Assembly (NCBI GenBank): GCA_019118885.1
Contig: DWYB01000036.1
Location: 1 to 64,000, forward strand
Reading direction: 5' to 3'
DNA: 64,000 nucleotides
Source: Candidatus Mediterraneibacter surreyensis
GTDB lineage: Bacteria; Bacillota; Clostridia; Lachnospirales; Lachnospiraceae
Position 1 is the stretch's first letter. Every line of letters starts with the position of its first letter. The position numbers were made by a program, and so were the translations under genes. Shown piece by piece: positions 12,759 through 15,905 of the stretch. A model generated the notes under the pieces. It searched no databases and was not told the origin of the DNA. It saw nothing but the letters and a program-made list of their open reading frames with translations.

Positions 12759-13499
12759 ATGTTATTTAACACAGCAGTTCCGCATCAGATAAAGATGCGG
12801 ATTATACCGGATATCAGAAATCTGATATTCGGGAAAGGAAAAGAAGTTTATTATATTGGAGGAGCGGAAATACTCCCTCCGCCATTAGAAGGAATAGAAG
12901 AAAAAGAGATGATCCGTTGTCTGGGAACAGAACATGACGAGGAAGCAAAAAAGACTCTGATCGAGCATAATCTGCGCCTGGTGGTATATATAGCAAAGAA
13001 ATTCGACAATACAGGGGTGGGAGTGGAGGATTTGATCTCTATAGGAACAATTGGACTTATCAAGGCGATCAATACTTTTAATCCGACAAAGAAGATCAAA
13101 CTTGCAACTTATGCATCACGCTGTATTGAGAATGAGATCCTTATGTATCTGAGGCGCAACAGCAAGACCAAAATGGAAGTTTCCATAGATGAGCCTCTCA
13201 ACGTAGACTGGGATGGAAATGAGCTGCTCCTGTCAGATATACTGGGAACAGACGAAGATACGATATACCGAGATCTTGAAAACGAGGCGGAGAGAAAGCT
13301 GCTTGTCCGGGCGCTCAATAAACTTTCCAGCCGGGAAAAACTGATTGTTAAGATGAGGTTTGGACTTGATAATCCGGAAGGGCGTGAAAAAACCCAGAAA
13401 GAAGTGGCGGATCTGCTGGGAATCTCACAGTCTTACATTTCCAGGCTGGAAAAGAAGATCATGCAGAGATTAAAAAGAGAGATGGTGCGGTATGAATGA
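12759..13499 (+). CDS. sigE: Sporulation sigma factor pro-sigma-E
   Basis: This is the mother-cell sigma factor of sporulation, 246 residues. The N-terminal pro-sequence of about 27 residues ends at '[15 protein letters not shown]', closely matching the known SpoIIGA cleavage region of pro-sigma-E. Regions 2 ('[20 protein letters not shown]', '[18 protein letters not shown]') and 4 ('[15 protein letters not shown]', helix-turn-helix '[22 protein letters not shown]') are complete. The AGGAGGAG site upstream supports the ATG. It is the last gene of the spoIIG operon here; sigG, often found next in Bacillus and Clostridium, is absent and a structured intergenic region follows. Confidence 0.97.
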
Positions 13500-13567
13500 A
13501 ATTCGTGTTTATTGTATAGATTACTCTGCAGAAAACAAAAAAGGGGCTGATCTGAATTACGGACGCC
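13500..13567. other. Left flank of the structured intergenic region
   Basis: This short stretch lies between the sigE stop and the first structured element. No clear terminator is seen here, so the structured block downstream may itself end sigE transcription. Confidence 0.4.
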
Positions 13568-13748
13568 GTGAGAAGCGGATACTGTAACGCCATGATGGCC
13601 CGCTTCTCCTCATCCCCTGGAATCCCTGTAACAAAAAAGCAAATGCTCGTCCATTGGAACTTGCATTTGCTTTTTCTAACAGGGAGAACCCGGTGTATTC
13701 GGAACGCTCCTGCCTTAATTCATGGCTTATACAGTATCCGCTTCTCAC
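13568..13748 (+). repeat. Structured element, copy A (candidate non-coding RNA)
   Basis: An outer helix pairs 13568-13586 with 13730-13748 (19 bp, perfect), and GCCATGA pairs with TCATGGC inside it. A further helix TCCCTGT/ACAGGGA (13623-13629 / 13679-13685) leads to a 13-bp hairpin (13634-13646 / 13663-13675) with a 16-nt loop TCGTCCATTGGAACTT. The unpaired segment CGGAACGCTCCTGCCTTAAT and the 16-nt loop recur identically in the inverted copy B, whereas the helices do not. It could act as RNA or as folded single-stranded DNA. No protein-coding potential is credible. Confidence 0.8.
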
Positions 13749-13750
13749 AG

Positions 13751-13769
13751 CTGACGCATCAGGCGTCAG
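13751..13769. repeat. Small 7-bp hairpin beside copy A
   Basis: CTGACGC (13751-13757) and GCGTCAG (13763-13769) flank a 5-nt loop. No comparable hairpin is seen at the mirrored place next to copy B, although the flanking sequence is related. Confidence 0.6.
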
Positions 13770-13799
13770 ACTTTCTGGTTATCCGCAGCGTATCCTATC

Positions 13800-13881
13800 A
13801 ACAAACATTCATAAAAACGGGAAGAAATAGGGGCTTTCTCGATAAAGCTCCACTCTCGTCCTGTTTTTATGAGTATTTGTT
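13800..13881. repeat. Central palindrome of the structured block
   Basis: Bases 13800-13822 pair with 13859-13881 over 23 positions (two wobbles, one mismatch). An inner hairpin GGGGCTTT/AAAGCTCC has a CTCGAT loop near 13840. This is the symmetry axis between inverted copies A and B, and the flanks on either side are also recognisably related. Confidence 0.75.
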
Positions 13882-13931
13882 CAGAAATCTTTGTGATGAC
13901 CGGACGTAAAACGATCAGACCGGATGAGGCA

Positions 13932-14118
13932 GCAGAAAAAAGGGAAACTGCGTGAGCCATGCATTAAGGCAGGAGCGTTCCGAAAAGCATTTGTTCTGGA
14001 TGTTAGGTGAAAGGAAATGCAAGTTCCAATGGACGAGCATTTCCTTTCGCCGTTACATCCATTCAAATCTTTGAGGTGGAGCGGGCCTGCATGGCGATGC
14101 AGTTTCCCTTTTTTCTGC
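13932..14118 (-). repeat. Structured element, copy B (inverted relative to copy A)
   Basis: The outer helix pairs 13932-13951 with 14099-14118 (20 bp, perfect) but its sequence is unrelated to that of copy A. GCCATGCA pairs with TGCATGGC (13956-13963 / 14088-14095). Helix TGGATGT/ACATCCA (13997-14003 / 14055-14061) and hairpin 14009-14020 / 14037-14048 enclose the same 16-nt loop as copy A, read on the minus strand. The minus-strand sequence of 13963-13982 repeats the conserved CGGAACGCTCCTGCCTTAAT. Different stems with kept pairing are what compensatory change in a functional structure looks like. Confidence 0.8.
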
Positions 14119-14183
14119 GTCAGCATATCTATCTGATATTTTTTACTCGAAACATCACATGATCTCTGTTACAAACACGAATT

Positions 14184-15905
14184 TTACATATTATAATAAT
14201 GTGCATAAATCCCATTCTGTCTGAGCAGAGACTCGTGTGTTCCCCGCTCGGCGATTCCATCCTCGGTGATGACGATGATTTCATCTGCGTTTCGTATGGT
14301 AGACAGGCGGTGAGCGATTGTGATGGTCGTCCGGTTTTTGGACAACTCTTCCAGACTCTGCTGGATCCAGCGTTCGCTCTCATTATCCAGGGCACTGGTT
14401 GCTTCGTCCAGGATGAGGATGGGCGGATTTTTCAGAAAGACACGGGCGATAGAGATACGCTGCTTCTGTCCTCCGGAAAGGCGGGCGCCGCGTTCTCCCA
14501 CGAAGGTATCATAGCCGTCCGGCAGTTCTTCGATGAAATCGTGAATATTAGCTCTTTTTGCAGCTTCGACGATCTCGTCCATGGTTGCTCCCGGTTTTCC
14601 GTATGCTATATTTTCCCGTATTGTCCCGGAGAAGAGGTAAACATCCTGTTGTACCATTCCGATCTGGCTTCTAAGAGACTTCAGTGTCAATGTGCGGACG
14701 TCTTTGCCGTCAATGGTGACCCGTCCTCCGGTTACATCGTAAAATCTTGGAAGGAGAGAGCAGATGGTTGTCTTTCCGCTTCCTGAAGGACCGACAAGAG
14801 CGATAGATTTGCCTGCCGGAATCTCAAAAGAAACATGAGACAGAACGGATGTATTGTCATCACTGTAATGGAAAGAAACATCTTCATAGCTGACGCGGCC
14901 CTTTACATTGACGAGCGGCTTTGCATCCGGTGCGTCCACGATTTCCGGCTCTGTTTCCATTACGTCAAGGAAACGGCGGAAACCTGCCAGCCCTTTCTGC
15001 ATCATTTCAATCAGCTCTACCAGGATCTGAATAGGACTTATAAATATACTGATATACAGGGCGTACATTGCCAGATCAACGGCGTCCATCAGTCCGTGAG
15101 CAATGAGCCAGCCGCCGAAGACCAGAGTCACAAGATACATCATGCCCTGGAAGAACAGGTTCCAGCCCATGAAATTTCCCATGCAGTTGTAATTATCCCT
15201 TTTGGAAATGAGGAAAGCGTGATTGCTCTTTTTGAACTTCTCGCGTTCAATGTCCTCGTTGGCAAAAGACTGCACCACACGGATGCCTGCCAGTGTATCC
15301 TGCAGGCTCGAGTTTACATCTCCGATTTTTCTCCGGTTTTCCATAAAGGTTTCCTGCATACGCTGGTTCTGTCGAAAAGAAAAAATGAACATGCACAGAA
15401 CGAGAACTACAAGCGGAAGAGCCAGCCTCCAGTTGATAAGGAAGAGGAAGATAAAGGAGCCGATGATCTTCACCAGAGAGATGAAGAGGTTTTCCGGTCC
15501 ATGATGCGCAAATTCCGCGATGTCGAACAAGTCCGATACAAGCTTGCTCATCATCTGCCCCGAGTTATTCTGACTGTAATAGGAAAAAGAAAGTTTTTCA
15601 TAATGATCGAAGAGCTGCTGGCGCATATCCCTCTCCATATTGGCTCCCATCATGTGGCCCTGATAACTTACGTAATATTTGCACAGGCTCTGGAGAATAT
15701 ACATGACCAGCAGTCCGGCGGCGATCCATGGCAGAGCATGCAGGATTGTGCTGCTGTCGCGTGTGAACAGTGTGTTTGTCATGGTGCGCAGGATCTGCGG
15801 GTACGCAAGATCCACGATACTGATAAAAGCCGCACATATGAGGTCAATAAAAAAGACCGTCTTGTACGGCGCGTAATAATCTATGAATTTTCTGATCGTG
15901 TGCAT
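14184..15905 (-). CDS. ABC exporter, fused membrane and ATPase domains (MsbA/MdlB type)
   Basis: This is a half-size ABC exporter of 573 residues that would work as a dimer in the cytoplasmic membrane. The N-terminal six-helix exporter domain (about residues 15-310) is followed by the nucleotide-binding domain. That domain has Walker A 'GPSGSGKTT' near 370, Q-loop 'IGMVQQDVYLFSG', signature 'LSGGQKQR' near 472, Walker B 'ILILDEATSALD' near 495 and H-loop 'IAHRLSTI'. The ATG is placed by GGAGTG in a good position. It is convergent with sigE across the structured intergenic block and divergent from the next gene. The substrate cannot be deduced; lipid or drug export is typical of the subfamily. 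Confidence 0.92.
   Translation of the reverse strand: MHTIRKFIDYYAPYKTVFFIDLICAAFISIVDLAYPQILRTMTNTLFTRDSSTILHALPWIAAGLLVMYILQSLCKYYVSYQGHMMGANMERDMRQQLFDHYEKLSFSYYSQNNSGQMMSKLVSDLFDIAEFAHHGPENLFISLVKIIGSFIFLFLINWRLALPLVVLVLCMFIFSFRQNQRMQETFMENRRKIGDVNSSLQDTLAGIRVVQSFANEDIEREKFKKSNHAFLISKRDNYNCMGNFMGWNLFFQGMMYLVTLVFGGWLIAHGLMDAVDLAMYALYISIFISPIQILVELIEMMQKGLAGFRRFLDVMETEPEIVDAPDAKPLVNVKGRVSYEDVSFHYSDDNTSVLSHVSFEIPAGKSIALVGPSGSGKTTICSLLPRFYDVTGGRVTIDGKDVRTLTLKSLRSQIGMVQQDVYLFSGTIRENIAYGKPGATMDEIVEAAKRANIHDFIEELPDGYDTFVGERGARLSGGQKQRISIARVFLKNPPILILDEATSALDNESERWIQQSLEELSKNRTTITIAHRLSTIRNADEIIVITEDGIAERGTHESLLRQNGIYAHYYNM

Follow-up and report, generated by a model that had tools for sequence, protein, structure and literature searches.

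REP dimers are described as imperfect palindromes in inverted pairs, many of them heterodimers whose members differ in stem or loop; the partners fold either separately or together, and the single-stranded REP fold is recognized by the RAYT of E. coli (PMC3733652). The bcr1-bcr18 repeats of the Bacillus cereus group, as far as the accessible text of PMC6542083 and PMC3446304 goes, are lineage-restricted, intergenic and 100-400 bp long, some of them being MITE-like and some having a conserved RNA structure. Clostridiales-1 is presented, in the accessible part of PMC2864571, as a structured RNA of the same gut bacteria that is neither cis-regulatory nor a switch. No description of an element like the one reported here was found in the accessible text of the open-licence literature searched. 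The element was found in a stretch of 64,000 nucleotides from Candidatus Mediterraneibacter surreyensis (hereafter the window). The folds of its arms are kept by compensating mutations, which gives the element the look of a mobile DNA family not described before, with selection on structure.

Layout and folding of the element

The element is a 684-bp near-palindrome at positions 13500-14183 of the window and takes up the whole spacer, stop to stop, between the convergent genes sigE and ABC exporter. It consists of TIR, arm B, central hairpin, arm A and TIR in this order, with TIRs of the type AATTCGTGTTT and inverted arms of ~185 nt each (182 and 187 nt in the window).

12759-13499, plus strand: sigE, whose stop codon TGA (13497-13499) abuts the element
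13500-14183, no strand: whole element, a near-palindrome from TIR to TIR, with TIR-bounded relatives at 18 other places in its own genome
13500-13521, plus strand: left TIR, AATTCGTGTTTATTGTATAGAT, from the TIR consensus search
13568-13749, minus strand (the strand with G-U above A-C, centre to TIR): arm B, model core 13587-13728
13800-13881, no strand: central hairpin, an inverted repeat with A-rich and T-rich stem flanks
13932-14118, plus strand (the strand with G-U above A-C, centre to TIR): arm A, model core 13954-14097
14162-14183, minus strand: right TIR, AATTCGTGTTTGTAACAGAGAT, from the TIR consensus search
14184-15905, minus strand: ABC exporter, MsbA-like but below the curated cut-off, whose stop codon (14184-14186) abuts the element

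The earlier note, which was made from the window alone, had described two inverted structured copies at 13568-14118. Both were found, with the following helices:

13565-13586/13730-13751: outer helix of arm B, 22 nt, 95% paired
13634-13646/13663-13675: apical helix of arm B, 100% paired
13932-13951/14099-14118: outer helix of arm A, 20 nt, 100% paired
14006-14020/14037-14051: apical helix of arm A, 93% paired

The segments said to be shared by the copies, TCGTCCATTGGAACTT, CGGAACGCTCCTGCCTTAAT, GCCATG and CATGGC, each occur once per arm, and the label sigE is correct (389.7 bits to the NCBIfam SigE equivalog, with a cut-off of 339). The extent of the element had to be enlarged: the block flagged earlier stands as its inner part, but the TIRs, the copy number and the stop-to-stop placement had been missed, and the central hairpin (13800-13881), left out at that time, is taken here as part of the unit. 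The ORF upstream of sigE matches SpoIIGA at 126.9 bits, under the cut-off of 209.55. A second sigE-like gene, 89% identical, is present in the same assembly (G000:C63:14140-14874) and could be either contamination or a second copy.

The coding capacity of the window element is limited to mechanical ORFs of at most 113 aa. Compared with dinucleotide shuffles, the folds of the arms on both strands have z values of -10.5, -10.6, -11.3 and -13.3, and in each of the four arm/strand tests none of 200 shuffles matches the native fold. When the whole element is single-stranded, two folds are open to it, one with the arms apart and one forming a single long hairpin, and their computed energies hardly differ (-312.5 kcal/mol for the plus strand folded as the long hairpin, -310.4 kcal/mol for the minus strand folded as separate arms). 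The region around the central hairpin (13795-13885) has a computed fold of -36.1 kcal/mol, and by eye this hairpin is terminator-like, which would be its presumable function.

The earlier note had recognized no riboswitch or intron type in the arms. Rfam has no match to them either: no family gives a gathering match in the window, nor anywhere in 11 of 12 related loci, the single match in the twelfth lying outside the arms, at the centre of an element of the single-contig genome G027. Searching 13400-14300 at E up to 10 returned 11 matches, all far below the cut-offs, and these were set aside as miRNA, snoRNA or lncRNA types.

Compensatory changes in the arms

An alignment of 42 arms (A1) was made by MAFFT, and its consensus structure was derived by RNAalifold. 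The arms were selected from 74 extracted ones by removing 2 spurious sequences and, from the remaining 72, 30 that shared at least 93% with an arm already retained; the extraction passed over arms that lie at contig ends or lack the flanking motifs. Of the 68 consensus pairs, 51 have double-sided changes. The cells of these pairs are paired at 97.8%, compared with 80.6% after shuffling (0 of 500 shuffles as high), the covariation score is 0.517 compared with 0.193, and the pairing falls to 40-49% when one side is slid by 1-3 columns. In none of five measures is the observed value attained by any of the 500 shuffles, counts which take no account of kinship and concern a structure derived from the same alignment. 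Both sides vary in all 20 pairs of the outer helix and in 13 of 14 pairs of the apical helix. GTTCCGAA and TGAGG, which face each other mid-arm, are invariant across A1, and their register suggests tandem G-A pairs.

A further arm class, D, has 30 of 62 pairs doubly changed among 12 dereplicated sequences. Class D arms (L105, L150, L152, L292, L297, L300) display strong covariation of their own as well as recurring GTTA internal loops.

The earlier note had predicted selection on a fold. For the arms, none of the refuting outcomes named there arose as far as homologues, covariation and Rfam are concerned. With covariation above both the shuffled and the slid controls, this reading is supported, and it is compatible with an RNA class as well as with a folded-DNA mobile element. 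Covariation alone is no proof of an RNA gene.

Copies and host range

Allowing up to 3 mismatches, the loop motif has 48 matches in the own genome (11 of them exact) versus 18 for the reversed control, and the TIR consensus has 49 (25+24) versus 0. Twenty loci of this genome and the window, 21 loci together, were examined for TIR pairs. A unit of 311-740 bp enclosed by TIRs that face each other is present in 19 of them; L116 and L117 have no TIR at up to 2 mismatches, with one 3-mismatch match in L117. By the covariance model described below, the own genome has 35 arms; its TIR-bounded elements number at least 19 and are of two main kinds, the A/B composites and the C-type elements whose second arm is of class D. 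G027 holds 66 arms, and 32+37 TIR matches versus 1 in the reversed control.

The search by covariance model, the route proposed in the earlier note, yielded many homologues. The model of the arm core (R1; 42 sequences, 144 positions) detects arms in 44 of 58 Mediterraneibacter genomes, the other 14 being without any. It matches 4 of 397 genomes in a family-level sample, the own genome included, and a broader model (R2) matches 7 of 392 genomes in an order-level sample, namely the own genome, four other Mediterraneibacter (G009 by a 60-nt partial match), G236 and G737 (a 34-nt partial match). Therefore, the family is largely restricted to Mediterraneibacter and a few relatives within these samples, which were searched with strict filters and few candidates scored per genome, and distant copies may escape. 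In G036, loop matches lie within ~80 bases of the start of contigs C8, C14, C15, C16 and C42; hence short-read assemblies probably tend to break at the elements, which may make the copy counts too low. Records of M. catenae SW178 contain copies as well.

In viral contigs, the exact loop pattern has 3 matches, none with arm context, and two core patterns have 0; the plasmid collection gave no element match. The phage collection gave one 72% match over 18% of the query, in MT838801, where a portion of a G027-type element lies next to an open-ended frame of 1511 aa. This record (MT838801.1, L305) is an unannotated 'Bacteriophage sp.' contig that looks like bacterial chromosome, and it was not accepted as a phage copy. 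Eleven of 54 loop matches in genome contigs (Rhodopirellula, Paenibacillus, Roseburia and others) have no arm nearby and were taken as chance.

Spread as a unit and the search for an enzyme

The identity of arms between loci is 0.90 for A-A and 0.92 for B-B, and that of A to B is 0.73, equal within and between elements. Ten whole composites share 0.86, with left flanks at 0.52. These values argue that the composite spreads as one unit. The copies in G027 are 84-97% identical (median 90%), which speaks against a very recent burst. By eye, the flanks are not repeated beyond AATT as a target-site duplication would be; a constant duplication of AATT itself would be compatible with this, no near-identical empty site having been found.

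No autonomous copy with the same ends was seen among the paired TIR matches of G027 or in the own genome, which is incomplete. The G027 pairs span 613-959 bp, except three of 2.2-2.4 kb. These three contain IS630-type transposases or an Rpn-like gene and look nested, and they were rejected as autonomous elements. The Rpn-like (Transposase_31) gene (L235, 2357-3379) lies between two half elements, with its stop abutting a TIR-like end. The two IS630-type transposases (DDE_3; L236, 2184-3374 and L237, 2412-3683) differ from each other but seem to have entered the central loop at an identical CTAG, next to Clostridiales-1.

The own genome encodes a RAYT-like protein of 269 aa, which scores 68.4 bits with a cut-off of 80; its gene (L323, 1841-2650) lies between two large reading frames. 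No arms were seen in the five regions read around this gene and four relatives. The search of G027 gave only one Y1 frame, of 159 aa, ~2 kb from an element. Among 16 genomes searched, 13 have Y1/RAYT genes: 7 of the 8 that carry arms and 6 of the 8 that lack an R1 match. The gene therefore does not track the element.

Clostridiales-1 as a passenger

Full matches of Clostridiales-1 (Rfam RF01699) are located in the centre loop of seven G027 elements; two further centre-loop matches are short and just above the cut-off, and a tenth match lies outside an element. Direct repeats of 7 bp (TTTACTA, TTTACGA or TTTAATA) flank Clostridiales-1 in six of the nine centre-loop cases and, with one mismatch, in a seventh, while an IS630 copy breaks one side in two of the nine. 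Six uninserted sister elements have the 7-bp sequence once.

L240, L242, L329, L336, L249, L338 (G027): centre-loop Clostridiales-1 between 7-bp repeats

In L239, a copy outside an element has an apparent repeat too. At the cut-off, Clostridiales-1 occurs in 26 of 58 Mediterraneibacter genomes, with at least 40 matches in G027. Clostridiales-1 looks like a mobile element; these observations speak for an insertion of the passenger and have no bearing on that of its host element. Some copies of what Rfam lists as an sRNA of unknown function look like inserted DNA in one genome.

Placement between convergent stop codons

At 32 of 38 element ends in the own genome, an ORF no shorter than 60 aa has a stop codon whose first base precedes AATT by 17 to 1 nt, and this stop often shares A's with AATT. 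Such a stop is present at both ends in 14 of 19 elements, and 6 ends are without one. In G027, the stop of an ORF of at least 60 aa is found no more than 20 nt away from 39 of 56 ends (two of those stops inside the TIR), compared with 173 of 4000 random points in the same loci, and 14 of 28 elements have a stop at both ends; unpaired TIR matches and 2 of 30 listed elements without flank are not in this count.

Other convergent spacers in the fetched loci, as delimited by a crude ORF caller, cover a wide length range; several in the window are 51-109 bp long, three with an evident hairpin. The orthologous sigE-exporter spacer measures ~11 to 110 bp by eye in the 5 of 30 loci where the junction is readable (L121, L123, L128, L139, L146), the others having a different sequence after sigE, a contig end or a wrong frame. 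For six other sites of the own genome, 20 regions of relatives were picked where both flanks lie close together (other flank pairs lay apart), and they comprise seven short spacers (7, 30, 50, 55, 94, 126 and 145 bp), the other 13 regions having inserts of 286-1029 bp. The 55-bp spacer keeps TIR-like ends and resembles an internal deletion. Two of the 13 inserts, both in G070, are of the same family as the element, and two in G078 resemble deleted C/D elements. By eye, most inserts are palindromic and most have AATT-type ends (AATTCGTGTTTGTT, AATTCGTATTTATC, AATTCCGTATTTTTCG, AATTCCGGATTTATC), at least one (in G020) being without. In a common gut genus, convergent junctions are repeatedly filled by fold-selected palindromes that end at stop codons.

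Origin and selection of the element

We consider that the element is probably a non-autonomous mobile DNA element, similar to a REP dimer or a MITE but larger and structure-selected. This reading rests on dispersed copies, agreement of the unit and not of its flanks, sharp ends, differing occupants of orthologous junctions and compensated folds. Mobility is supported by this distribution, and the mechanism is proposed from sequence features. The two ends (TIR AATTYGTGTTTGTT) enclose two long irregular hairpins, inverted relative to each other, with the central hairpin between them; an enzyme supplied in trans would recognize the ends and the folded arm. The recognized form would probably be a single strand, the one running from centre to TIR, as RAYT transposases recognize REP dimers. 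Copies would persist chiefly at convergent junctions, since the hairpins there can act as 3′ ends for the genes on both sides. If the element is mobile, one must ask by what means its transposition system locates the 3′ ends of a convergent gene pair.

On the centre-to-TIR strand, A1 has 149 G-U versus 22 A-C cells, or 96 versus 20 when the internal helices P3-4 are left aside. A wider set comprises 88 of 97 matches, the 9 omitted ones being partial, and includes a few duplicates (same contig, two locus ids); in its alignment, which was fitted to the model, the counts are 185 and 33. The D arm, with 72 versus 5, has the same outward-reading polarity. The excess is absent in G027 (1 versus 3) and in G115/G431 (14 versus 13). 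The bias points to the centre-to-TIR strand as the selected one, presumably as RNA or as single-stranded DNA, the polarity being compatible with both. G-T wobble is tolerated in folded DNA as well.

A further-reaching proposal, which we put forward tentatively, is a new mobile class in which the arms act as strand-specifically folded RNA or single-stranded DNA, insertion is aimed at the 3′ ends of genes, the whole stop-to-stop spacer is exchanged, and rival families (four TIR types by eye) take the same junctions across species.

It is rather unlikely that the arms encode two regulatory or structural ncRNAs whose transcription runs from the centre towards the flanking gene ends, in antisense to these, and whose fold acts as RNA. 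The deep compensatory changes with invariant internal-loop sequences would suit such RNAs, as would the polarity of G-U over A-C in A1 and in the D arm, but this polarity is missing from the genomes named above and is open to folded DNA too. Moreover, the promoter scan of the stretch found no promoter of the element's own, the sole promoter-like site in that stretch lying at the right end of the element, with 1.3 such sites expected by chance in the scan, and copies in genus g59 lie near genes in either orientation, by eye.

Unlikely, too, is a host-serving bidirectional terminator or mRNA 3′-end module, long resident and spread between junctions by gene conversion. Such a module would explain why the element ends at stops on both sides, leaving no room for a native terminator, why the central hairpin is flanked by A/T and why a given junction can be taken by inserts that differ from one another but have similar ends. 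However, a source of the first copies would be needed, the TIRs are more conserved than a terminator requires, a short spacer suffices at orthologous junctions, the element is far longer than a terminator, and the terminator scan gave no call at the central hairpin (13800-13881).

A guide RNA scaffold for a TnpB/IscB-like nuclease, with the flank beyond the TIR as guide, would fit the outward course of the favoured strand of both arms to the element end, but is very improbable given that the arms have no gathering match to any Rfam family. Chance or a decayed duplication without selection can practically be dismissed, because none of the 500 shuffles attains the observed value in any of the five measures (kinship uncorrected), slid partners lose their pairing and dozens of homologues exist.

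Comparison with known systems

An attC site was considered and rejected, as the TAAC boxes that face each other lack complementarity. Clostridiales-1, although multi-copy, is a different family from the arms, a passenger and not an arm, and has 7-bp direct repeats. The mobility of bcr repeats is described as tied to TTTAT repeats, whereas the element described here forms inverted pairs between convergent stops.

Like REP/REPIN sequences, the arms form inverted dimers, often heterodimers. Unlike REPs, which according to the available text are 20-40 bp long with GTAG/CGTC tags, the arms are 182/187 nt long with conserved AATT ends, have invariant internal loops and are accompanied by TIRs and a central hairpin; and in contrast to the REP/RAYT system, no RAYT gene flanked by arms was seen in the five regions examined or at the Y1 frame of G027. 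Like MITEs, the element has TIRs, many copies and no transposase of its own that was seen. It differs from them in that no target duplication was seen, no parent transposon with the same ends was found and the arms are under fold selection. As a fold-selected dispersed palindrome, the element behaves like a REP dimer or a MITE while corresponding fully to neither definition.
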